Below are positions 4,977 to 61,766 of a stretch of 64,000 bases of DNA, one piece after another. Location of the stretch: NCBI GenBank assembly GCA_017163975.1, contig JAFFSR010000136.1, forward strand, positions 5,205,501 through 5,269,500. Direction: 5' to 3'. The position numbers and the translations under genes were made by a program. This DNA is from Anastatus disparis. Its lineage: Eukaryota > Arthropoda > Insecta > Hymenoptera > Eupelmidae. The notes beneath the pieces were generated by a model. The model made no database searches. It worked only from the letters and a program-made list of their open reading frames with translations, and had not been told where the DNA came from. How positions within the stretch are numbered: position 1 is the stretch's first letter; each line of letters starts with the position of its first letter.

Positions 4977-6545
4977 TATCAAAACCTTCATCGAAATCTT
5001 CAATATCAATATTGAAAAGACAGCGTGAAAGAATTTACAAACATGTTAGAGGCGATCAGAAGATCAGGATATGAACCCCATAAGCATTAGAGGAAAAAAA
5101 ATAGAAATTTTTTTTAATGAATTATGGCAATTATGAATATATTTTTTTTTAATTAAACGGTTGATATTAAAATATTATTCTGGAAATTTCAAAAGATATA
5201 CAAAGATTAAAATCTAAAAGTTATATTTATCTTCATGAATTGAGTACAAAATAAATGATTATAATGATCTAAGCGAAATGATTGCAATTCCTTATCTTTT
5301 CAAAGTTAAATATTTGACTTTTAATAGACGTTTATTTGAAGTGCTTTTTTCAAATGATAAAAAAATAAACTCATAGTATATTTATTTTGTATTTGAATAA
5401 CTTTAGTCTTTTTTTTTTAAATTACAGTAAATATTACAATAAATAATTTTGTTAATTTTGCGTGCAACAATCAGGAATCAATAATAACAAAAGAATTATG
5501 AATACTTTTTATTTACTGGTCAAATAGTACTTTTTAGGCACGACCGCTATACGGAAGTGCCTTATATTTTCGACATCGCGGAAAATGTGACCCTTTAAAA
5601 TATGTTATTTTATGATAAAAAACTTATTTTTATAGCAGAATAAGACTATTACGAAGCTTCCTTAAAATGTATGTATGGATGTAGTGTGTGAGAAATCAAG
5701 TTGATGAATTTTCTTGACGAGTTTTTATCCGATCTGAATAATTCAAACAGGGAATTATTTTAAATAATAATACAAGTGAACGTTCCTATTTTGAAAAAAA
5801 TCGTTCGAAGCGTTTTTAAATAGGCGCCTTTTAAATGGTCAAAAAAATGAATTTTTGGTAATAATTCGAAAAATACGATATTTCTTAAAAGTATATAGAA
5901 TAAAAGTTATAGAATATAAAAAAATAAATCTTTTTTATATCATACATTTTTCTCTAAAGTTAATATTTTTCAAATCGTTCATGAAAAATGTTGAAATCGA
6001 AGGCTTTTTAATGATAATTTGATAAATATTATTTAAAAATATATATATATTGATAAATATTATTTAAAAATATATATATAATATTAAGAAGATGTATCTC
6101 ATTTTTTTCTATAAATTTTATTTTATATACTTTTTTCAAAATTCGTTTTTTTCAAGTTAACACCAAAAAAGCAGCCCATAGTGCCGCTGTGGCGAGCTAG
6201 TTAATACTAGTTCGTTAAATTATAAAACGGTCTATAACATGAGTACTTAATTTCTTACTTGTATAGAATTATATTTTTTGACTTCAAGCGCGTTCTTGTA
6301 TCGAACAATTTTATTGTGTGTTAAGTAAAATACAATTTTATGCACTTTGTGTCAAAAATGATTTCGCAGAAAATCAAATCTTAGATAAACTAATGCAAGT
6401 ACACTTTCATTTTTAGATTAAATATGCCACTTACAATTTTTTTACCTTTCTCGACAAAAATTGTAGAAACTTCAAAGTTTAAAAAAAAAATCGTTTTTTA
6501 AAATGTTAACACATTAAAAAAGAGGTATTATATTACACTTTCAAA
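4977..6545. other. Non-coding AT-rich interval
   Basis: No gene is supported. It includes a short perfect tandem duplication (6018-6080) and a small palindrome, AGGCAC...GTGCCT, near 5537-5564. Confidence 0.5.
6018..6080. repeat. Tandem duplication, ~31-bp unit
   Basis: The unit GATAAATATTATTTAAAAAT plus an (AT)n run occurs twice head to tail. It probably arose by slippage. Confidence 0.75.
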
Positions 6546-6934
6546 TTAAGAGCAGGTCGTATATCTCTGTCCTTTTCTAATCAAAGAATTAATTTTTTTT
6601 GCAAAATCTAATAATTGTAGCAAAAAATAAGGAGATAGCCCCATCTCGTATGATAAAAAGTAAGATTTTCTTTGATGAGGAAAAATTATTCTTATTGCTT
6701 TTTTTTAAGAAAACCTTGAAAAACTTAAAAAATAGAGGTTAGGATGAACAATTCAGTTTTTCAAGGTTTTCTTAAAAACGAAGCGATAAAAATAATTTTT
6801 CCTCATAAAATAGAATCTTGCTTTTTATTATACGAGATGGGGCTTTTTTCTTATTTTTTGCTACAATTATTAATTTTTGTGAAAAAATCAATTTTTTGAT
6901 TAGAAAAGGACAGATATACTCGACCTCCTCTTAA
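6546..6934. mobile_element. TTAA-flanked MITE, family A, copy 1
   Basis: TTAA at both ends (6546-6549 and 6931-6934) encloses inverted ends GAGCAGGTCG...CGACCTCCTC. The arms pair over most of the element, including TCCTTTTCTAATCAAA and GAAAACCTTGAAAA. Other copies are at 34487 (truncated) and 59235-59530. A TTAA target duplication is typical of piggyBac and Kolobok elements. No ORF. Confidence 0.85.
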
Positions 6935-7127
6935 GCTAATTATATTTTCCTGTAATTTTTTCTTAAAAAGTTACAAGCAAATTTATAAATAATAGAAACT
7001 TTTTTTAATGACAAACATATCCGCTATTATTTACTTTAGAGAAAAACGTCAAAAAAATGTTGATTTTTTAGCGTAGGATATGTCTACAAAGTTTGACCGA
7101 AATCAGATAAAAAAATGTTTTATTTTT

Positions 7128-8935
7128 CAATTTTTCTCTTTTTGCTTTCTCATAGAGAAAGCATTGTATCGGTAAAAAAAATTTTTTTCTATTTTTTCAT
7201 TAATTTGTACATATTTGAACTCAGTGAGTCGAAAAAAGTGGTTTCCAGAAAATGTCTGTATGTATTGTGTGTGTGTGTGTGTGTGTGGATGTATGAATTC
7301 AGTTAGTAAGCTGTATCTCGAGAACTACTCGATGGATTTGCTTCTAATTTTGCATGGAATTTAGTTTTGTGATTAACTTGCTGGGAAGCTATTGATAATT
7401 TGGTTCTTCCACCGTAGTTTTCATTTTAAAGTTTTTTTAAAAAAAAAAAAAAAATTCGATTTTTCGTTTTTTTTGGTTTTTTTTGTTTACTACTCGATGA
7501 ATTTGCTTCAAAATTTGCATGGAATTTATTTCTGATTGCCCGGATAAAATAAATTTTTAAAAACTGATTTTCTTAGCTCAGTTTTAATTTTAGAGCATTT
7601 TGAAATTTTTGAAAAAAATGTTTCTATTTATTAAGCCAATAAAATCTTAAAAACTACTCGATGGATTTACTTCAAATTTTCCATACAATTCAATTTTTGA
7701 TGAACTGGTGCGGAAGCTATTGGGAATTGGTTTTCTTAGCGCAGTTTTTTTTTTAGAATCATTTTAAGAATTTTTAAAAAATTTCGATTTTTCATTTTTT
7801 TTGTATTTTACGTAAACTACTCGAAGAATTTGTTCGAAAATTTGTATGGAACTTAATTTCGACTGCCAAAAGTATAAAAAATTTTGTAAACTAATTTTCT
7901 TAGCGCACTTTTAATTTTAGAGCATTTTTAAAATTTTTAAAAAATTTTTATTTTTATTTTTTTTCTATTTTACGAAAACCATTTGATAGATTTGCTCCAA
8001 AATTTGTATGCAATTTATTCGCTACTGTCTGAAGAAAACAAGCTTTGGAAAATTAATTTTCTCAGTGCAGTTTTAATTTTAGAGCACTTTGAAAATTTTC
8101 AAAAAAATTTTTATTTTTCATTTATTTTCTATTTTGCGTAAACCATACTATAAATTTTCTCCAAAATTTTTATACAATTAATTCGCTGTTGTCTGAAAAA
8201 CATAAGCTTTTGAAAACTAATTTTCTTAGCGTGGTTGCAATTTTAGAGAATTTTAAAGATTTAAAAAAAAATTCGATTCTTCTTTTCTTATTTTTTTTTA
8301 TTCTACGTAAAGTACTCGATAGATTTGTTCTAAAAATTGCAGGGAAATTATTTGCGACTGCCAAAAGAAGGGAAATTTTCAAAAATTGATTTTCATAGCG
8401 TAGTTTTAATTTTAGAGAATTTTTAAAATTTTGAAAAAGAAATTTTGAAAAGAAAATGTTATTTATTTAACCAGTTAGATCTCGAAAATTACTCGATGGA
8501 TTTGCTTCAAATTTTGTATACCATCTATGTTTTTGTATAACTAGACGGGAAGCTATTGAAAATTGGTATTCATAGAGTAGTTTTTTTTATAGAGCCATAA
8601 ACATGAACTGTATTTATATATAAATATGATTGCATTTTATAAAGATTAGAAATTTTGTTGTCATCATTCTTTTTATTACTACATTATATCATTTTTCAAT
8701 AGAACAAATTTTTTTGTATTACTTGATGATTTAAAATAAATTATAAATGTTGAAAAAGCAAACAGCTAGCATATGTGTTCGAAATTTATAAAGCACAATA
8801 TGAGTAAATATTAATGTTAGACAATTTTTTAATATTAAAATCACATATAAATAAATATAAAAAAATTAATGAAACTCAAAGAACTCTATGAGAAAGCATT
8901 CCGCCAAAGCACTTGGCAGCGTTTTTGGTTCTTTA
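7128..8935 (+). repeat. Tandem ~163-bp unit repeat, left inverted copy
   Basis: The copy starts with the palindrome GCTTTCTCATAGAGAAAGC and a (GT)n run (about 7269-7287). About eight degenerate units of 161-176 bp follow, each containing a variant of ACTCGATGGATTTGCTTC. It ends near 8935 with GAAAGCATTCCGCC. The same structure is found inverted at 13970-16168 and as a 5' part at 63777-64000. Short apparent proteins in it are shadows of the repeat. Its origin class is unknown: it could be a non-autonomous transposon carrying satellite-like units. Confidence 0.8.
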
Positions 8936-10032
8936 GTTAAAATTTTTAACATATCATGACAAATATAGCAAATAATTTAGATATCTTATAAATACTTATA
9001 AAAACATCATATAAAAGATTTTATAACGACTTTTGAATAAATTACAGTTATATTAACTACGTATCAAATAATTAGAACATTGAAAAAAAAAATTTTTATC
9101 TAATATCTGTTAAGTTTTATAGGCATATTTTATACTAAAAACACAAATTTTTTTCTTTATAATTTTTTTCTATAATAAAAAGTAGTGGAGATATTCGGAA
9201 TAAAAAAAGATGTCCCTTCTTTACGAATCGGCTTATAACTTATTAAAAAAAATCGTAGATTTTGATTTGAAAGAGAGACACTATACCTACGTTTTAATGT
9301 ATAAACACTTCCAAAATAATTTTTTTTTTATAATAGCAAAATATTAAAAAATGATGAATATTTAAAAAAATTTTCTTAGATTTTTCGTCTTTAAAAATAA
9401 AAAAAAGGTTTTCAAAATGGAATTAATACCACTTTTATTTGAAACTTTCAAACTCAATGTACTGTACATTAATGATTTTTCGATTTTTTAAAATTGTGTA
9501 AAAGTAACTAAGGATCAAAAATTAAAAATAAAAAACGTAATTTTTTTGTGTAAAAACACGATTTTACTTGTATCTTCTCTTACGAATAAATACTTGTCAT
9601 CCTAAAATAGTTATTAGAACATTTTCTAAAGAAATAAAAATTTAGATATGAAAGGGTTAAATAAGTTTCCAAGACTTTTCTAAAACCAAATTGCTGATTT
9701 CTGTACGTTGATTTTTCGCAATGATATAAAACTTTAAAGTTCATATAATTTTTGTTGAAATGGTCAGAGATTTGATTTGATTTGACAAAAATTTTATTAA
9801 TCATGGGGTAGTACCCCGTATGATTCAACAAGTACAATACAAAGAATTAATATAAAAATAAACTAATGTAATTAAAACAATGAACAGCAAAAATTTCAAA
9901 ATTGAAAAACAATGAAAAAATAATTAAGAAAAGCTTATGTAAAATTTAAGATTAAACAAAAAATTGATTTTAGTAAAATTAAGTTAAATTGCGTACGCCA
10001 GCTGGTAATCCCATAGCAGCTAGGGCTCAGTT
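8936..10032. other. Non-coding AT-rich interval
   Basis: No ORF with protein-like composition, and no RNA gene, is recognised. Confidence 0.45.
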
Positions 10033-25088: not shown

Positions 25089-26450
25089 ATGATTTTGAAA
25101 TGGCTACCCACAAAATGTTTAGTTTGTTCTATGTTAGTTTGCAAAAGATGGTGCCAAATAGCTCGAGATGAAACTATATGGACAAAATTAGATCTTGAAA
25201 GTAAAGTTTTAAATGAAAGTACACTAGGAAATATTCTTCCAAGAGGTGTTCAAATACTTAGAATGGCACAAGCTAAAATAGCACAACCAGCGTTTCTTCT
25301 AAACAGTGATAATTTTTTTGAAAACTATGTTAGTAAACTTCAATATTTAGATCTTTCTATGGCTGCTGTCTCTCCGGCAGACTTGTCAGAATTGTTGTCT
25401 AAATGTAAATATCTGAAAAAACTTTCTTTCGAAAAGTGCACTTCGAACAAATCATGCTGTGAAGCAATCAGTAAAAACAATGATTTGGAAGTACACTAGG
25501 ACATATTCTTCCAAGAGGTGTTCAAATACTTAGATTGGCACAAGCTGAAATAGCACAACCAGCGTTTCTTCTAAACAGTGATAATTTTTTTGAAAACTAT
25601 GTTAGTAAACTTCAATATTTAGATCTTTCTATGGCTGCTGTCTCTCCGGCAGACTTGTCAGAATTGTTGTCTAAATGTAAATATCTGAAAAAACTTTCTT
25701 TGGAAAAGTGCACTTTGAACAAATTATGCTGTGAAGCAATCAGTAAAAACAATGATTTGGAAGTACACTAGGACATATTCTTCCAAGAGGTGTTCAAATA
25801 CTTAGATTGGCACAAGCTGAAATAGCACAACCAGCGTTTCTTCTAAACAGTGATAATTTTTTGAAAACTATGTTAGTAAACTTCAATATTTAGATCTTTC
25901 TATGGCTGTTGTCTCTCTGGCAGACTTATCAAAATTGTTGTCTAAATGTAAATATCTAAAAAAACTTTCTTTGGAAAAATGCACTTTGAACAAATCATGC
26001 TGTGAAGCAATCAGTAAAAACAATGATTTACAAGTCCTCAATTTAACCATGTGTGAAGGAATGAACATTGATTGTCTAAAGGATTTAATGAAATTGACGA
26101 AATTAACTTCTCTCAATATGGCATGATGTGCCTTAGATTCTGAATCAATAATTTATCTATGTCGTTCGTTACCTGCTTCTATTACAAGATTGAACATTGC
26201 TGAATGTCGAAAAAGCTGACTGATGACAATTTAAAAGATTTAGTTTAAAGCTGTCCTTATCTAGCAGAGCTAAATTTAGGTGACTGTACCTTACTTACAA
26301 TCAATACAGTCCACAGTTTAATGACTTTAGATGAACTAGATCATTTATCAGTGAGTAGAGGTTATTTGTACACTTGTACATATGATTTTCATATTCTAAG
26401 TATGTTAAGAAATTACCGCTGTGGCTTAAAAATAGATTATAATTTATTGT
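25089..26450 (+). pseudogene. Skp2-like F-box/LRR pseudogene with 272-bp internal triplication
   Basis: The first frame (25089-25499) gives an F-box C-terminal half (MILKWLPTK...VCKRWCQIARDETIW) followed by leucine-rich repeats typical of SKP2, the substrate receptor of SCF ubiquitin ligases. A 272-bp segment is present three times in tandem (starting at 25218, 25490 and 25762). As 272 is not a multiple of three, each junction shifts the frame and hits a stop. The third copy runs on into further LRRs (VLNLTMCEGMNIDCL) with stops and a frameshift after 26126, ending near 26345-26450. The F-box N-terminus and C-terminal end are missing and no introns are visible, so it is a 5'-truncated, possibly retrotransposed, copy. 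Confidence 0.8.
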
Positions 26451-54005: not shown

Positions 54006-54176
54006 TACACTGAAAAAAAAGCCGAACTCACACGCTGCGAAGTCGATTGTTGTGAGTGATTTGGACAACATTCGCAGCTATTAATAACGGAAAATCGCTA
54101 TATAAGAGTGCGTAACAATATCGCAGCCAATCATTCGAACTTTCTGTATAAAAGATTACAATTGATCGGAGCAGAG

Positions 54177-54480
54177 CGCTGCGACTAAGCTGCGTTGTGG
54201 CTCGCTACGGCTCTCCGTAGTCTACGGCACAGAAAGCTGAATCCAAGCCCAACGACTAAACTGCTTTGTCGCTCGCTACGGCTCTCCGTAGTCTACCGCA
54301 CAGAAAGCTGAATCCAAGCCCAGCGGCTAAACTGCTTTGTCGCTTGCTCCGTCTCTTCGCATTGAATCATGCAGAAGGCCGAAGGCAAACACTGCGAATA
54401 AACTCTGTAGTCGCTCACTACGGTTCTCTGTACTCTAACGTATACAGAAAGCTGAATTCGAACATAGCGATTTATTGCGT
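54177..54480. repeat. Subterminal ~70-bp tandem repeats
   Basis: About four or five units containing CGCTCGCTACGGCTCTCCG and AGAAAGCTGAATCC are in tandem. They are GC-rich relative to the window. A 97-codon frame through them is mirrored at 60952-61245 and is probably not a gene. Tandem subterminal repeats are often transposase-binding sites. Confidence 0.75.
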
Positions 54481-54707
54481 GGTCGCTCGCTTTGAATGCC
54501 GATCTCAAGCATTGCGACAACGCTTTGAACACGCTTACTTGGTTAATAAATATCATTGAAAAAATGATAATTTTTACTTCCTTTTATATTTTTTTTTAAT
54601 GTTCATGTAATTATGTGAATACATAATTTTGAACTATTTTCAAAAATTTATAATTTATAAATACAGTTAATGCTTTAATATCTTTGATGATTTTTTTTTA
54701 TTTTCAG

Positions 54708-54727
54708 ATTTATTAGGACATATTTAA
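54708..54727 (+). other. Possible terminal exon inside the element arm
   Basis: TTATTTTCAG at 54698-54707 is a strong acceptor. Joined in phase to exon 4 (52391) it gives HLLGHI and a stop at 54725-54727. It may be a chance site or an exonised transposon end. The identical acceptor exists inverted near 60800. Confidence 0.2.
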
Positions 54728-55165
54728 AGTTAAATAGTTAAAAACTATACTAATAAATCTATTAACAAATCTAAAAATAAAACAAATAAAAAATTGAGAA
54801 AGAAAAAACTTTTTTTAACAAACAATTTATGTAATTATGGATACTAACATTTATGAAGTTATTACTAAACATTAGATTACCTTAATTATATTGTTCCAAA
54901 TTTCATACGCAAGTTTTATTCACTTGACGAAAAAGGGAAAATATTTACAGATGATTTTTATGCTATTTTAAATTCTTAATTAATTTAGGTACATAATAAA
55001 TAATAAATATTTCCAAGTAAAAAATACTCAAAACCTGGTAAAACTAAGATTTATTGGTGATATCGTCACTACATATTTACACATGATATCTGATAAAAAT
55101 GTATTTTTACGTTTTCTTCAAAACAAAGTGCGTTTGAAGAAAGAAAATCTTACAATTGATTAAAA

Positions 55166-56023
55166 ATGACTGTTTTTAATACTTTTCCGCAAATTCAGGG
55201 GTTTTCAAAAATTTATTCAAATTTTGAATTGCCAATTACTGTTAACATAATTATTTATGGCCCTTTAGACTCAATAAAAGTTGGTTATGTTGTAGTTGGA
55301 TCTAAATACCGCTATCGAGTAGTAGGAGATAATATTATATTAAAGGCTATAGAACTAGCTTTTAAGAGCATGACGAAGCTGTCCGCCTTCTAATAATATT
55401 TCCAATCTTAACTTATGAATAAACGATGCCTTTAATCGAGTTTCTTTGCTACAAAGAAAAAATTTGTAAGATTAAACTCTAGTGCGGACAACTCAAGAAA
55501 TCCACCAAAATATTATACATACAAAGTTATAATAAAAACTTTCAATATGTCGTATTTTAAGGTTAGGTTTGTCGAGTTTGATATCTAATTTCCAATCCAA
55601 GCTCATAAAAAATAAAAAGTCCAAATGATTTTTTATTTTAACAAAAATTATTGTATAAATATAGCTTTAGTGCGGACAAGTCATTATATTTGTTTAATTT
55701 AAGAATTTAAAAAGATATTGATAAAATAAAAAAAGCAAAACTCGATTGCTGCAGCTCCGACATGCCGTTAAAATAGTAATAGCGTTGGAAAAATTTTTCC
55801 TGAGGCTTCGAAAGCTGTATGGCAATTTATTAAATATTATATTTTTAAATGTAATCGTACCACAATTTTCTCTAATGTTGCCTCGCTTATGGATAAACTT
55901 GATGATCCATTGAATTTTATTGTGACTAAAAAACAGTGTTTAAAAAAACTACTCCCTAGTCTTGTCAAATATTATTTAATGAAATTTCATAATTTTTATC
56001 ATGATGTTAAAATATTCAAATAA
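55166..56023 (+). pseudogene. Element-encoded ORF of unknown family, split by a MITE
   Basis: The first part (55166-55361) encodes IQGFSKIYSNFELPITVNII and GYVVVGSKYRYRVVGDN. The second part (about 55775-56023) encodes VGKIFPEASKAVWQFIKYY and ends at a TAA at 56021. Both have protein-like composition in an AT-rich tract with few chance open frames. A family C MITE (55362-55771) lies between them. Removing it leaves the two parts in different frames, so another indel exists. I do not recognise the family. It starts inside the left TIR. Confidence 0.55.
55362..55771. mobile_element. TTAA-flanked MITE, family C, copy 3
   Basis: TTAA at 55362-55365 and 55768-55771. It is the inverse of 36393-36796 with high similarity (GACGAAGCTGTCCGCC ... 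GCAGCTCCGACATGCCG). Confidence 0.88.
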
Positions 56024-58040
56024 TATTTATAGTTTGATAAATTTTTTATTTAAATTTAAAGTGCTTTTTATAAGTGCTAAATTGAGAAATAACTAGTTTT
56101 AGAAAATATTATTGTATTATACACACACACATATATATATATTATGATTCACATTAAAAATATATTAGATTTATAAAGTTGATCTAAGTCTCTTATCGAT
56201 TAAAAATTATAAAAATTTTCTTGCGTTAATTTTATGTTAATCTGATAAATTATTTCGATAGTCAAACTCATATGTATAAAAACAATTGTGTTCTTTAAAA
56301 TTTAGACAAATAATGTTTTAAAATTAAGAATTACAATATTATAAGATTCCAATGAAAACTTTTGACTTTTCACAACTTCAACGTTGATTTATATTGAAAT
56401 TGGTATCGATGGTTGCGATTTTCAATGAATAGCACATTTTGAAATGTTTTTAGAATAAGTTTTGCTTTTCATTTTAGTTATTGAACTTAAATGAAGTCAA
56501 CACAACTAAAAATTTGGATTTTGAATAAAATTATAATCAATGGAAGAAAATAGAATTATTTATTTAAAAAAAAGCACGCATTGAATATTTCGCAAAACTT
56601 TCTCCTAATAAATATATATTCTTTTTTAAATAAAAATTATCGTAAAGATAATATATTTTGAAATTTTGGAAAATTTTTAAATTTTCAACGTTTTTGTATT
56701 TGAGGAATTAACTTTAAAAAAAATTTTATGTGATAAGTGAGTATGTGTGCAAGTGTGCACGTATATATTTTAATCAATAAATATGTATATTATAAAAAAA
56801 ATAAAAATTAAAAAAAAAGTTGTTTTATTCAATGTTACTCTATATTTTGATAATATACTTGTAAATCCTCAAAAAGCATTAAAATACTGAAAACAATTAG
56901 TAGCATATTGCTATTATACATGCAAAAATAATGAATCACAAACATTGCTAGAATTAAGTTAATAAGTAATTAATTTGAATAGAAAAAATAATAAATTTTA
57001 AATGATACAGGTTTATGAATACAAAACAGAAAAATAGACATAAAAAAATATATTTTTTACACGTACTTTAAATATTTCTTTTCCAGTATAATTTTCAAAG
57101 GTAACTTAAATGTGTAGTTTTAAAAATATTAAAATAGTTAATTCAATATAGATTATTCATCGATTATATAAATATAAAAAATTAGGGTAAAAAATTAAAC
57201 TTAAGAAAAATCGATTTGTTAAAAAATATTTAATTTTAATTATCCAATCTCAGATTGAGAGGTAATAATCTTGAAATGAATTAATAATTTTTTAAGGAAA
57301 TTCGGTGAGAAAAATACTGTATTCTGAATATAATTCTATACTTTACATAAATAAATGACAAAGTAATTGATTATTTGGAGAAAGGAGTGATATTATCGAT
57401 TTTAAAAAGATGTTTTTTAATATAATTTTATTGTAAATTATTTTCACAGGTAACTTTCTTTACATAATAAATTTTTTTTTAATATTTTCGACATTACACT
57501 GAGAACTAGAAAAATTTTCTGGTAAAAATTACAAGGAACAGTGGTAGCATAGTTATAGGCCGACATTATAGCAAAAAATTCCCATGTTACATAGTAAAAT
57601 TTACAAGAAAAATAAGAATTTTTATTATATTTCAAACTAAAAAACTAAATTTATTGTAAATCTATAATGAACAGCGCTTTCAATAATTTTCTTAAAATTA
57701 TATAATTTTTATAAAAAATCACGATTTTTGCATTATACCTCTTAAATAAACTTTAATATAATTATAGAACCATAATTATAAGAAGCAAACATTAGTAGAG
57801 TCATGTGTAACTTTATATAGCAATTTTTTTATGAACATTTACTGACTTGGAATTGTTGTAACGGCTCATATTGATTTTGGGTATAATTATTAAATTAAAC
57901 ACAAATATGTCATAAGAATGACTATATTATTTAAAAGATAGAATAAATTTTAGTTATAAGAAATTTAAATTACATTAAAAGAATAAGTAGGACTTCATAG
58001 TTACCTACTGAGGTCGATAAGATAACTCAAATGTATATAT
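56024..58040. other. AT-rich interior of the 7.5-kb element
   Basis: No ORF or RNA gene is recognised. It includes an (AC)n/(AT)n microsatellite at 56120-56143. Confidence 0.45.
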
Positions 58041-58062
58041 ATAGATATAGTAAAATGATTAT

Positions 58063-58429
58063 AGAAATAGAATGTTCTATTTCTTTTAATAAAAAGTATT
58101 ATCAATATTTAATTGTTAATAATAAAATGTAACTTTCTAAAATAATTGTGTATATATAAATAGAACATTCTATTTATATAATATGTATGAAACTGATTAC
58201 TCTATTTAAAGTTTAAAGATATTAATTAAAATATAAAAGATTAACTTTTTCAATTAATAAATAATAAAATTAACTATAAAAAATAGTTATTTGAAATGTA
58301 AAGGAAATAGAATGTTTCTTTTACTAATACATTTATCTTAATTAAATGTTTCTTTTGTAAATATCTAAAATAAATGTTATGGAACATTCTATTTCCTAAA
58401 ATATAATTCTTCAATAAGAAATAGAACCT
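58063..58429 (+). promoter_or_regulatory. Cluster of heat-shock-element-like palindromes
   Basis: Motifs built from GAA and TTC blocks: AGAAATAGAATGTTCTATTTCT-like at 58063-58084, AGAACATTCT at 58162-58171, AGAATGTTTCT near 58309, GGAACATTCTATTTCC at 58381-58396 and TTCTTCAATAAGAAATAGAA near 58408-58427. Each has the GAAnnTTC core recognised by heat-shock factor. Several have flanking GAA/TTC with a 1-nt gap. They lie 25-390 bp upstream of a TATA box. HSF binding is inferred from the motif only. Confidence 0.55.
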
Positions 58430-58450
58430 CATAGAAGGTTTAAGAAATAA

Positions 58451-58458
58451 TATAAAAG
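58451..58458 (+). promoter_or_regulatory. TATAAAAG box
   Basis: A canonical TATAAAAG is followed about 30 nt later by CTCTCAATT, a plausible initiator (start near 58480). It is placed between the HSE-like cluster and the hairpin array. Confidence 0.55.
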
Positions 58459-58479
58459 AGCGTGAACTCAAGCAAGCTC

Positions 58480-59080
58480 TCTCAATTATCTTTTAGATGT
58501 TCGACCATGTAACATCTAACATGGATACTATATTCATTCAATCTTATACTGTCAGAAGTATAAGATTTAAGCATTCTGTCTTAAAATACTAAGTAACTTT
58601 AGAATCTTTGTAATATATATATTTTCTTAATTTTTTAATAAAAAGATTAAGTATTTCAAATTTAAATGAGACTGTGTTTAAAAAGTTATTGATAAAAGTA
58701 TAACTCATCTCATCTCATTGATCATTTTTCATATAAATACTAAACAAATTAATTATCGCACATTGAAGAGTATTGCACTTGGAGATGTCGTCGATAATAA
58801 TTTGTTTATTCATTTTGCATTAAATAGAAGTGTTATTTATCGCACATCTAAGAGTATTGCACTCAAAGATGTCGTCGATTTAAACACTTCTCTACATATC
58901 TCATATAATAAAAAAGTTGATTATCGCACTCTTTAGAGTATTGCACTCAACGAAGTCGTCGATAATAACTTTTATCATTCTACCCTCTCCTCCACACGTA
59001 AAGAAAATTATAAATTATCGCATCTCCAAGAGTATTGCACTGGAGGAGATCGTCGATAAACATAATTTTCTTATACAATA
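58480..59080 (+). ncRNA. Putative structured RNA with at least six hairpins
   Basis: Two simple hairpins (58495-58517, AGATGTT/AACATCT; 58540-58567, AATCTTATAC/GTATAAGATT) precede four homologous units: 58742-58807, 58826-58891, 58912-58973 and 59001-59072 (84-89 nt apart). Each unit has a variable outer stem, then TTATCGCA opposite TCGTCGATAA, a variable middle stem, and the apical loop AGAGTATTGCACT. Outer stems differ but stay complementary: AACAAATT/AATTTGTT, GAAGTGTT/AACACTTC, AAAAGTT/AACTTTT, GAAAATTAT/ATAATTTTC. Middle stems also covary (ACATCT/AGATGT, ATCTCC/GGAGAT). No protein frame runs across the units. I do not recognise the family. Transcription is not proven. Confidence 0.6.
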
Positions 59081-59234
59081 TTGTTGTATGCACCTTGTAT
59101 ATGCATGGAATTAATTAAAATAATGAAGTAAATTTAAATTCGGTAATTAAAATATTACCTGGCGACCGTGAATAAAGTCGGGAACGCTTCATTGTCATTA
59201 CCAGTTTCAATATTGAACCTGATTGTACCTTGTT

Positions 59235-59530
59235 TTAAGAGAAGGTCACGCTTCTCCTTTTCTTTTCTAATCAAAGAATAAATTTTGCAAAAACTAATTT
59301 TAGTAAAAAATGAAGAGAACGCGGCATCTCGTATAAAATAAAGCAAAATTTTCTTTGATAAGAAAAAATTAATTTTATTACTTCGTTTTCAAGAAAATCT
59401 TGAAAAAGAAAATTTTTTACCTTAAACTATATGGTTTAAGTTTTTTAACGTTTTCTTGATTATATTAGTTATTGTAAAAAAAAACAATTCTTTGATTAGA
59501 AAAAGACGAATATACTCGACCTGCTCTTAA
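59235..59530. mobile_element. TTAA-flanked MITE, family A, copy 3
   Basis: TTAA at 59235-59238 and 59527-59530. The ends GAGAAGGTC and CGACCTGCTC enclose the family A interior, slightly shortened. Inserted in the 7.5-kb element. Confidence 0.82.
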
Positions 59531-61504
59531 ATTTGTTGTTTTAGTTTTCTTAAAAATTATTTGCGTGGTTTAAATTATATTTAATGAAAGAACCTCCGAA
59601 AATTTGCTTTTTTCCATACCATTTATGCAAAAACCATTCATATAATTTTTCGAAAATTTTGATACTATTAATGAAATTTTCAAGGTACCGTGCAATATTG
59701 CTTTTAAAAAATGAATTTTGTTTAACAATTTGAAAAATGAATAATTTATTCGCAAACAGTTGTGTATTTTTTAATTTAATGGAATAGTCACTGTTTAAAA
59801 ATTGTTTGAAAAAAGTGATATTTAAAGTTGAAACTTTTAAGGATGTACCAATATATCTTTGAAATTTATTTAAAATAATTTTCGTTAGTATATTATTTTA
59901 TTCCATTTTATGAAATCTTAATAAAATAATAGTCTTAGTTATAACATTAAATCCATAGAACTTGTAGATATATATATATATATACGTAAAATTTAACATG
60001 AATTCACACGGCTAAATAATAAAAATCAATAAGTCTGGGAATATGTTCCATTTGGTTTCCAAAATAGAAATCAAAAATTTTGAGGTTAAAAATTCAAAGT
60101 AATGGAATATTTTTATTTACTCAAATTTTTTGAGTGAAATTAAGTTATAATTACAATATGTAGACTTTTTAACTTACCTGTTAGGTGAAGATCACTATTG
60201 AATATACACAAAAACTGCCTAAGTTGATTTGATATTTAATGACTTGACTTAATATTTTTTTTATAAAGAACGAATAAATTTCAGCGATAACGAAGACAAT
60301 TTTTGAAAACCCCTGAATTTGCGGAAAAGTATTAAAAACAGTCATTTTTAATCAATTGTAAGATTTTCTTTCTTCAAACGCACTTTGTTTTGAAGAAAAC
60401 GTAAAAATACATTTTTATCAGATATCATGTGTAAATATGTAGTGACGATATCACCAATAAATCTTAGTTTTACCAGGTTTTGAGTATTTTTTACTTGGAA
60501 ATATTTATTATTTATTATGTACCTAAATTAATTAAGAATTTAAAATAGCATAAAAATCATCTGTAAATATTTTCCCTTTTCGTCAAGTGAATAAAACTTG
60601 CGTATGAAATTTGGAACAATATAATTAAGGTAATCTAATGTTTAGTAATAACTTCATAAATGTTAGTATCCATAATTACATAAATTGTTTGTTAAAAAAA
60701 GTTTTTTTCTTTCTCAATTTTTTATTTGTTTTATTTTTAGATTTGTTAATAGATTTATTAGTATAGTTTTTTAACTATTTAACTTTAAATATGTCCTAAT
60801 AAATCTGAAAATAAAAAAAATCATCAAAGATATTAAAGCATTAACTGTATTTATAAATTATAAATTTTTGAAAATAGTTCAAAATTATGTATTCACATAA
60901 TTACATGAACATTAAAAAAAAATATAAAAGGAAGTAAAAATTATCATTTTTTCAATGATATTTATTAACCAAGTAAGCGTGTTCAAAGCGTTGTCGCAAT
61001 GCTTGAGATCGGCATTCAAAGCGAGCGACCACGCAATAAATCGCTATGTTCGAATTCAGCTTTCTGTATACGTTAGAGTACAGAGAACCGTAGTGAGCGA
61101 CTACAGAGTTTATTCGCAGTGTTTGCCTTCGGCCTTCTGCATGATTCAATGCGAAGAGACGGAGCAAGCGACAAAGCAGTTTAGCCGCTGGGCTTGGATT
61201 CAGCTTTCTGTGCGGTAGACTACGGAGAGCCGTAGCGAGCGACAAAGCAGTTTAGTCGTTGGGCTTGGATTCAGCTTTCTGTGCCGTAGACTACGGAGAG
61301 CCGTAGCGAGCCACAACGCAGCTTAGTCGCAGCGCTCTGCTCCGATCAATTGTAATCTTTTATACAGAAAGTTCGAATGATTGGCTGCGATATTGTTACG
61401 CACTCTTATATAGCGATTTTCCGTTATTAATAGCTGCGAATGTTGTCCAAATCACTCACAACAATCGACTTCGCAGCGTGTGAGTTCGGCTTTTTTTTCA
61501 GTGT

Positions 61505-61766
61505 ATGATGAACGTACAGACAAATAATAGTACTATACTATACGTCTGTGTGTATTCAGCTACTAGGTTGCGTATATTCTATAACTAACAGCATTAAACT
61601 ACTAATACAAACTTAACCTCATCGTCATAATACAGTTTGTTTTCGTTATGATACTGCCTTTACTGTGATGATGATGATATTAAGCAAATTTTAGAATAGA
61701 ATAGAATATATTTTTGCATACAAAAATAGATTTATTAGTAAAATTCATATTCAATGATATCTATTT
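61505..61766. other. Short non-coding interval
   Basis: Nothing recognisable between the 7.5-kb element and the next MITE. Confidence 0.4.

Follow-up and report, generated by a model that had tools for sequence, protein, structure and literature searches.

Four tandem hairpins at positions 58742-59069 of the window (the whole 64,000-nucleotide stretch of Anastatus disparis DNA analyzed here) lie within a solo long terminal repeat (LTR) of a dispersed retrotransposon, and selection acts on the pairing of their stems in active copies. We propose for the array a cis-acting role as RNA, in the U5 segment of the 5′ leader, where it would serve as a set of docking sites bound by Gag, an explanation to which, taken as a whole and resting partly on analogy, we assign a probability of about 45%.

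The hairpin array and its predicted fold

The four units, spaced 84, 84, and 94 nt apart in the window sequence, lie on the plus strand at 58742-58807 (unit 1), 58826-58891 (unit 2), 58910-58975 (unit 3), and 59004-59069 (unit 4). The 13-nt apex AGAGTATTGCACT, found on the plus strand at 58767-58779 in unit 1, is identical and exact in all four units, with the other copies starting at 58851, 58935, and 59029; no further site in the window resembles it at up to two mismatches, with 1.7 expected by chance. TTATCGCA and TCGTCGAT are likewise present in all four units, and TCGTCGATAA is confined to units 1, 3, and 4, with TCGTCGATTT at this position in unit 2. Folding z-scores of units 1 to 4 are -4.6, -5.8, -3.6, and -5.6 on the plus strand and -4.3, -6.4, -3.0, and -6.6 on the minus strand, and because these values are similar, folding energy picks no strand. 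Relative to 23 other aligned segments, the window copy has two private changes, one in GGAGATG of unit 1 (a G that is T in the other 23) and one in CGAAGTC of unit 3 (an A that is G in the other 23).

A first-pass annotation, made from the letters of the window, had described four tandem hairpins with differing outer stems and a set of segments kept in every unit. The hairpins are real and lie where it placed them, with folds that far exceed those of shuffled sequences on both strands, and the outer stems that it quoted, including AAAAGTT/AACTTTT of unit 3, are correct; among the conserved segments, TTATCGCA and AGAGTATTGCACT hold for four of four units and TCGTCGATAA is missing from unit 2, which reads TCGTCGATTT. 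Its remark that it knew no family with this consensus also agrees with a search of Rfam, in which none of 4227 families reached its gathering cutoff in the window; over 57700-59400, the best match to the array was mir-507, on the minus strand (17.5 bits, E 2.5, cutoff 79). Sequence patterns of the array gave zero matches in viral contigs. Two pattern matches in bacterial contigs were rejected as probably due to chance, as the covariance model R1 finds nothing in them at E up to 1. Among literature titles and abstract openings concerned with such repeats and with leader signals, we found no description of a tandem hairpin array in LTR elements.

The array resides in the LTR of a dispersed retrotransposon

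Comparison with 20 other copies defines a solo LTR of 1335 bp on the plus strand at 57857-59191, which runs from TGTAACGG to GCTTCA, has TG...CA ends, and contains the array as bases 886-1213. The LTR starts at the same TGTAACGG in 17 of the 20 other copies, and in the window it is flanked by matching 4-bp target site duplications (TSDs), TTGT, at 57853-57856 on the left and 59192-59195 on the right. The 4-bp flanks match in 10 of 11 copies in which both ends abut other DNA, with L024 one base off and with the match in L023 of little meaning, given the AT repeat at its insertion site. A primer-binding site (PBS), AC followed by TGGCGACCGTGACAGGAC (ACTGGCGACCGTGACAGGAC), which we take to be of the tRNA-Arg type, lies directly 3′ of the LTR in L009, L019, and L022, and a G-tract (TATCTGGGGG...CTA) lies directly 5′ of the LTR in L010, L020, L021, and L026; one or the other is visible in 7 of the 20 copies, the remainder being solo or incomplete. 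The family therefore has the features of an LTR retrotransposon, namely a TG...CA LTR, short target duplications, a PBS after the 5′ LTR, and a polypurine tract before the 3′ LTR. At the four loci with enough flank, we found no tRNA gene with the PBS complement at its end; 20 more loci are cut too close to tell.

In the 939-Mb genome, the apex 13-mer has 923 + 832 exact copies, compared to 11 + 9 for a reversed control, and among the apex matches listed, most belong to arrays whose units are 84 and 94 nt apart. The 35-nt core of unit 4 is found, at up to two mismatches, at 521 places (273 + 248), with zero for the control. It is practically certain that the window array belongs to the LTR of a retrotransposon with hundreds of genome copies. 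A free-standing noncoding RNA gene is ruled out since the array is inside a dispersed LTR; the first-pass annotation was right about the hairpins and overlooked this LTR, which makes the array a cis-element of a mobile element. One LTR copy, L026 (4807-5249), has six hairpins in the order 1-2-1-2-3-4, with units 1 and 2 tandemly duplicated.

The window LTR is itself inserted midway into a larger inverted-repeat element (54006-61505). The arms of this element, 54006-55213 and 60298-61505, are 1.2 kb each and 99.7% identical, contain 71-bp internal repeats, and have ends that begin about CACTGAAAAAAAAGCC, in the manner of a foldback-like DNA element around the LTR. An origin of the array with the inverted-repeat element is ruled out by the LTR's own ends and target duplication, and no match to the arms of more than 80 bp was found at 19 of the 20 other LTR loci, with only short matches of 71-75% in L025. 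Elsewhere in the window, three nearly identical 272-bp tandem repeats at 25217-26029 overlap the end of an open frame that resembles, by eye, an F-box/leucine-rich-repeat protein.

Coding content and lineage of the element

The copy at L029 encodes a protease-reverse transcriptase frame (domains RVP and RVT_1), preceded by a 452-residue frame with no Pfam match that we took as gag. No further frame of at least 120 residues is present in L029, and the presence of protease and only part of the reverse transcriptase marks it as an internally deleted copy; it nonetheless retains its hairpin arrays. Its two LTRs differ by one mismatch and one gap over their comparable parts (≈910 columns) and are thus nearly identical, so that L029 seems to have moved recently. 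Two broken RVT_1 pieces in L019 and the Integrase_H2C2 and rve domains in L020 are flanked by two LTRs and apparently belong to a single longer copy. The resulting order of protease (PR), reverse transcriptase (RT), and integrase (IN) is that of Ty3/gypsy elements (Metaviridae), and judged by its sequence the element is a Ty3/gypsy-type LTR retrotransposon. A protein search with the RT returned 26 relatives of 26-55% identity, and a further RT query, for viral relatives, found none. The internal region of L009 also contains a LINE-like open frame (5795-9899; endonuclease and RT by eye).

Within Ty3/gypsy, the available text of one study describes an element of the Mdg1 lineage, cqgypsy_47, with a tRNA-Arg PBS and 4-bp TSDs, and one Mag-lineage element that also has a tRNA-Arg PBS (PMC3286476). 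The window family is a candidate for the Mdg1 lineage, which it is like, in that text, in its 4-bp target duplications, presumed kind of PBS, and PR-RT-IN order. The PBS and TSD fit Mdg1, with the reservation that a tRNA-Arg PBS is also known outside Mdg1, and the word hairpin is absent from the main text of that study (PMC3286476).

Probable position of the array in the leader

A probable promoter is marked by the TATA box TATAAAAG on the plus strand at 58451-58458, which is retained in 8 of the 11 copies aligned. Another U3 type, with the TATA box TATAAAAAGG closer to the array, is present in L015, L018, and L020, and the two U3 types, each with its TATA box (TATAAAAGAG or TATAAAAAGG), join a common part that starts near 58532. 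From this LTR anatomy, the U3/R border would fall ≈30 nt downstream of the TATA box at 58451-58458, and transcription would start near 58484-58532. A plus-strand AATAAA at 58637-58642, ≈100 nt past the start of the common part, is a probable poly(A) signal near the presumptive R/U5 border; it occurs at or beside this site in 10 of 11 aligned copies (L016 is without it at 58637), a figure to be weighed against many other AATAAA in the AT-rich LTR. The order along the LTR is TATA box, AATAAA, hairpin array, LTR end, and PBS, and from the positions of the TATA box, poly(A) signal, and PBS we place the hairpins on the window plus strand and probably in U5 rather than in R. They would then be found at the 5′ end only of the genomic RNA.

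The PBS, the G-tract, and the L029 pol frame concur in making the window plus strand the sense strand of the element, and the orientation of promoter, PBS, and G-tract leads us to infer that the array very probably works as sense-strand RNA rather than as DNA. When the predicted leader was folded with each of three alternative starts and the LTR end as its 3′ limit, all four hairpins persisted, with mean pair probabilities of 0.73-0.99 in the outer stems and 0.96-0.97 in the middle stems, except for the less firm middle stem of unit 3 (0.54-0.55). We also considered G-U relative to A-C appositions as an indicator of strand; these were suggestive in the first 24 segments and not significant in larger sets, with 6 to 3 independent events (p = 0.25) and ratios of 5:3 among shared and 27:30 among one-copy changes. 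Of the earlier contention that selection acts on an RNA fold and not on DNA, selection for pairing stands, and the G-U/A-C counts (6:3) leave the strand undecided.

Inside the LTR, a second PBS-like sequence, TGGCGACCGTG, is found on the plus strand at 59160-59170 and starts 32 nt before the LTR end. A second PBS-like sequence is also present ≈40 nt before the PBS in the related-family loci L108, L109, L112, L116, and L118, and L121 carries TGGTGACCGTG at this site. Such a sequence may be left over from a change in the LTR border, or it may serve as an additional point of contact for the tRNA.

Covariation and selection in family A

We denote the family of the window copy family A. In an alignment of 17 hand-picked units (A1), two-sided changes occur at 11 of 26 pairs. 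Paired cells make up 91.0% of this alignment, compared to 39-50% when it is slid by 1-3 columns; the covariation score was reached by 0 of 500 shuffles and the count of further pair types by 117 of 500. Across copies, one pair of unit 1 is C-G in 29, G-C in 28, and T-A in 19, and one pair of unit 2 is A-T (A-U in RNA) in 37, G-T (G-U) in 29, and G-C in 14.

Changes found in one copy were taken as mostly decay after insertion and compared with those shared among copies. Pairing survives 10 of 13 changes common to at least six copies versus 29 of 122 one-copy changes (p = 0.0002), and with the limit lowered to at least four copies, pairing is kept in 12 of 19 (p = 0.001). These counts comprise only pairs whose commonest state pairs and come from a gap-free scan of 90 sequences, which passes over units that contain indels; changes present in 2-5 copies (2-3 under the lower limit) were set aside. 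A first set of 24 R-U5 segments, consisting of one from the window and 23 from L009-L037 and omitting the rearranged or incomplete arrays of L014, L019, L024, L026, L030, L031, and L034, gave 9 of 10 shared versus 11 of 36 one-copy changes with pairing kept (p = 0.0011). Copies added later all carry the exact unit-4 core. In L030, also of family A, the bulges of unit 2 are lost.

Unpaired positions are even more restricted. Changes common to at least five copies number 0.101 per paired column, 0.036 per unpaired column, and 0.329 per spacer column (p = 0.0003), whereas one-copy changes number 0.47, 0.55, and 0.55, respectively, in 77 of 84 arrays, with seven dropped for gaps and changes in 2-4 copies set aside. 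Because shared changes are rarest in the unpaired apex and bulges and one-copy changes are about equally frequent in hairpins and spacers, these are the most constrained parts of the array. Among 10 representatives, the array is the best-conserved stretch of R-U5 (0.89-0.96 versus 0.71-0.86). Weighing against selection, one-copy changes are themselves three times rarer in the array than in the LTR outside it, and the two regions are alike in their proportion of one-copy and shared changes (44:15 versus 160:76; p = 0.35); since copies were picked by an intact apex or unit 4, the spacer comparison is safer than that with the outside LTR. Shared changes thus keep pairing and spare unpaired bases, from which we conclude with high confidence that the pairing structure, together with its bulges and apex, is under selection in active elements. 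The covariation first noticed among the four window units persists with more aligned copies (11 of 26 two-sided pairs in A1 and 0 of 500 shuffles), and selection on pairing holds with many more copies and with a second, diverged family.

A second LTR family with a diverged array

A search with the 15-nt PBS complement found 197 genome places. Of 23 PBS-match loci (a set that leaves out L101, which is L009), three have the same arrays, five have diverged arrays with R1 scores of 40-61 bits, one (L121) has a decayed array scoring 29 and 26 bits, and 14 are without a detectable hairpin; TGG precedes the PBS match in 22 of the 23, the exception being L103. Given the 14 loci that lack hairpins, the array is no general need of such elements. 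These loci (L100, L102-L106, L111, L113-L115, L117, L119, L122, and L123) have a PBS match, no R1 hairpin, and a different preceding sequence, and are probably other LTR families.

In the second family, denoted family B, three hairpins of the same design occupy the corresponding site ahead of the PBS; their stem sequences are unrelated to those of family A, and their apex differs. The family B module is found at 317 + 313 genome places (control, 8 + 2) and the module form with the shorter loop at 880 + 826 (control, 1 + 1). In units 1 and 3 of family B, outer and middle stems of other sequence pair in the same register, and unit 2 shows a length difference in the copies examined. An alignment of 15 hand-picked units from families A and B (A2), which omits family B unit 2, three family B units with ATCGTA, and the apical stem, has 13 of 22 pairs that change on both sides and none that changes on one side only, with a covariation score of 0.501 versus 0.079-0.140 when slid. 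In all 15 of these units, a module of six pairs, AUCGCA/UCGUCGAU, with single-base bulges C and U, is unchanged; outside A2, U-G replaces the C-G pair between the bulges in 3 of 16 complete family B units. The apex that had been annotated as conserved is so in the four window units, while across families GUAUUGCAC of family A gives way to GUAAAGCAU in family B, with GUANNGCA common to both. Among the 100 family B matches listed, of 630 in total, A-U/G-C and U-A/C-G exchanges occur with G-U intermediates, with 29 G-U versus 18 A-C cells in distinct sequences. In L116, part of the LTR end is duplicated in nested fashion at 639-709, with one truncated family B hairpin in the duplicated stretch.

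A candidate docking array and its alternatives

The array may be viewed as a cis-acting RNA element in the U5 segment of a Ty3/gypsy-type 5′ leader, with the genomic RNA ordered as transcription start site, R, hairpins, PBS, and gag. Each hairpin would constitute one protein docking site, with the GUANNGCA apex loop at one end of a 5-6-bp middle stem and the two-bulge AUCGCA/UCGUCGAU module at its far end, and the three to four tandem copies would permit multivalent binding. The likeliest partner is the element's own Gag, which would in this way pick out the RNA for packaging, at a site beside the PBS. A constant loop and bulges, drifting stems, and several copies per LTR tip the balance slightly toward a protein-docking array. 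Packaging by Gag specifically is a more tentative proposal, drawn by analogy; a cis packaging signal fits the leader site beside the PBS and the retention of the arrays in the internally deleted L029, which appears to have been mobile recently.

A DNA-level regulatory site of the insulator or enhancer kind is quite unlikely. Such sites can occur as repeats in the untranslated regions of LTR elements, according to the available text of PMC3286476, and the units fold about equally on both strands, with G-U/A-C counts that are undecided; recognition of double-stranded DNA, however, has no need of stems in which bases vary freely as long as they pair, as in the C-G/G-C/T-A pair of unit 1, and this covariation makes DNA sites unlikely. 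A DNA cruciform could pair, but bulges kept in 15 of 15 A2 units fit a folded single strand better. Very unlikely, too, is that pairing is kept without function by template switching, with one arm copied onto the other while DNA is synthesized or RNA is reverse transcribed. This mechanism can generate stems and mend them (PMC8794818, available text) and could act on a reverse-transcribed element, yet it would not fix the unpaired apex and bulges, which vary least in active lineages (0.036 per column), and is expected to remove the bulges. Furthermore, two-sided changes that keep pairing make up 3 of 13 shared versus 2 of 122 one-copy changes (p = 0.006), and G-U intermediates are common, as in unit 2, where 29 G-U stand between 37 A-U and 14 G-C.

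Small-RNA precursors with microRNA-like or siRNA products have the slimmest chance of all. Tandem hairpins of 62-72 nt and the weak minus-strand mir-507 match would suit them, as would the apex TATTGCACT, which we take to equal the 5′ end of the miR-92/miR-310 family. These miR-92-like bases are in the terminal loop and not in an arm, and the second family has TAAAGCATC at the seed-like bases, so that the would-be seed is not conserved and a miR-92-like seed is ruled out; the stems are short and interrupted, no arm is conserved over 20 nt, and the long, near-continuous stem and conserved mature arm of a microRNA precursor are absent. An RNA export or translation element, with host proteins bound to the repeated hairpins, is unlikely, if somewhat less so than the foregoing. 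Some mammalian retroelements use duplicated, structured elements for RNA export, for example, the RNA transport element of IAP; against this stands the position of the array, which would be at the 5′ end only. Finally, the 5′ leader position and identical loops in tandem would be compatible with dimer initiation through loop-loop kissing of genomic RNAs, as in retroviruses, and kissing dimers are proposed for Ty1 and Ty3 in the available text of PMC5454406 and PMC11381356. We consider this improbable in view of the weak self-complementarity, at best, of the loops: self-pairing of the family A apex amounts to -4.7 kcal/mol (-2.9 for the loop alone, -13.9 for a GC hexamer control), family A has only a weak UGCA, and the family B loop UAAAGCAU is without a 4-base palindrome, so neither offers the self-complementary loop of a dimer initiation site.

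Comparison with known leader elements

If the array does act as a docking platform, it could tentatively be placed in a class of its own among retrotransposon cis-elements, as a tandem array of modular hairpins in the U5 leader of several LTR families of one genome that offers multivalent docking and is also kept by internally deleted copies that would be mobilized in trans. For LTR retrotransposons, signals in the leader and those for packaging are poorly characterized, and the hundreds of copies in two families amount to a natural mutation experiment with clear covariation, in which a candidate binding site can be read from sequence; a single RNA and a single protein would suffice to test it. 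More generally, sorting the changes in a repeat into those of one copy and those common to a lineage offers a way to tell selection from decay. Structured leaders in LTR elements are known; a tandem covarying hairpin module common to several LTR families was found neither in Rfam nor in the literature searched and is what we consider new here.

TAR of HIV-2/SIV and the IAP RNA transport element are stem-loops with a constant loop and bulge that serve as protein-binding sites. The hairpins described here are like them by this general description, and the array is without any Rfam match. The gypsy 5′ untranslated region insulator, in the available text of PMC3286476, is similar in having tandem sites in the noncoding leader of an insect LTR element; those are DNA regulatory sites, whereas in the present array stems covary and bulges are kept. 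Close parallels are also offered by the leaders of Ty1, with its TIPIRT domain, and Ty3, which are likewise structured 5′ RNA ends near the PBS. In the text available for these systems, the Ty1 5′ leader is required in cis for packaging and the start of reverse transcription (PMC5454406), the Ty3 packaging and leader signals are "not precisely defined" (PMC11381356), and the leaders act or are thought to act in cis for packaging, dimer formation, and initiation of reverse transcription. The Ty1 and Ty3 leaders described there harbor a pseudoknot, kissing loops, or palindromes (PMC5454406, PMC11381356); the arrays of families A and B, in contrast, have no shared palindrome and instead present three to four copies of one modular hairpin, placed inside the LTR.
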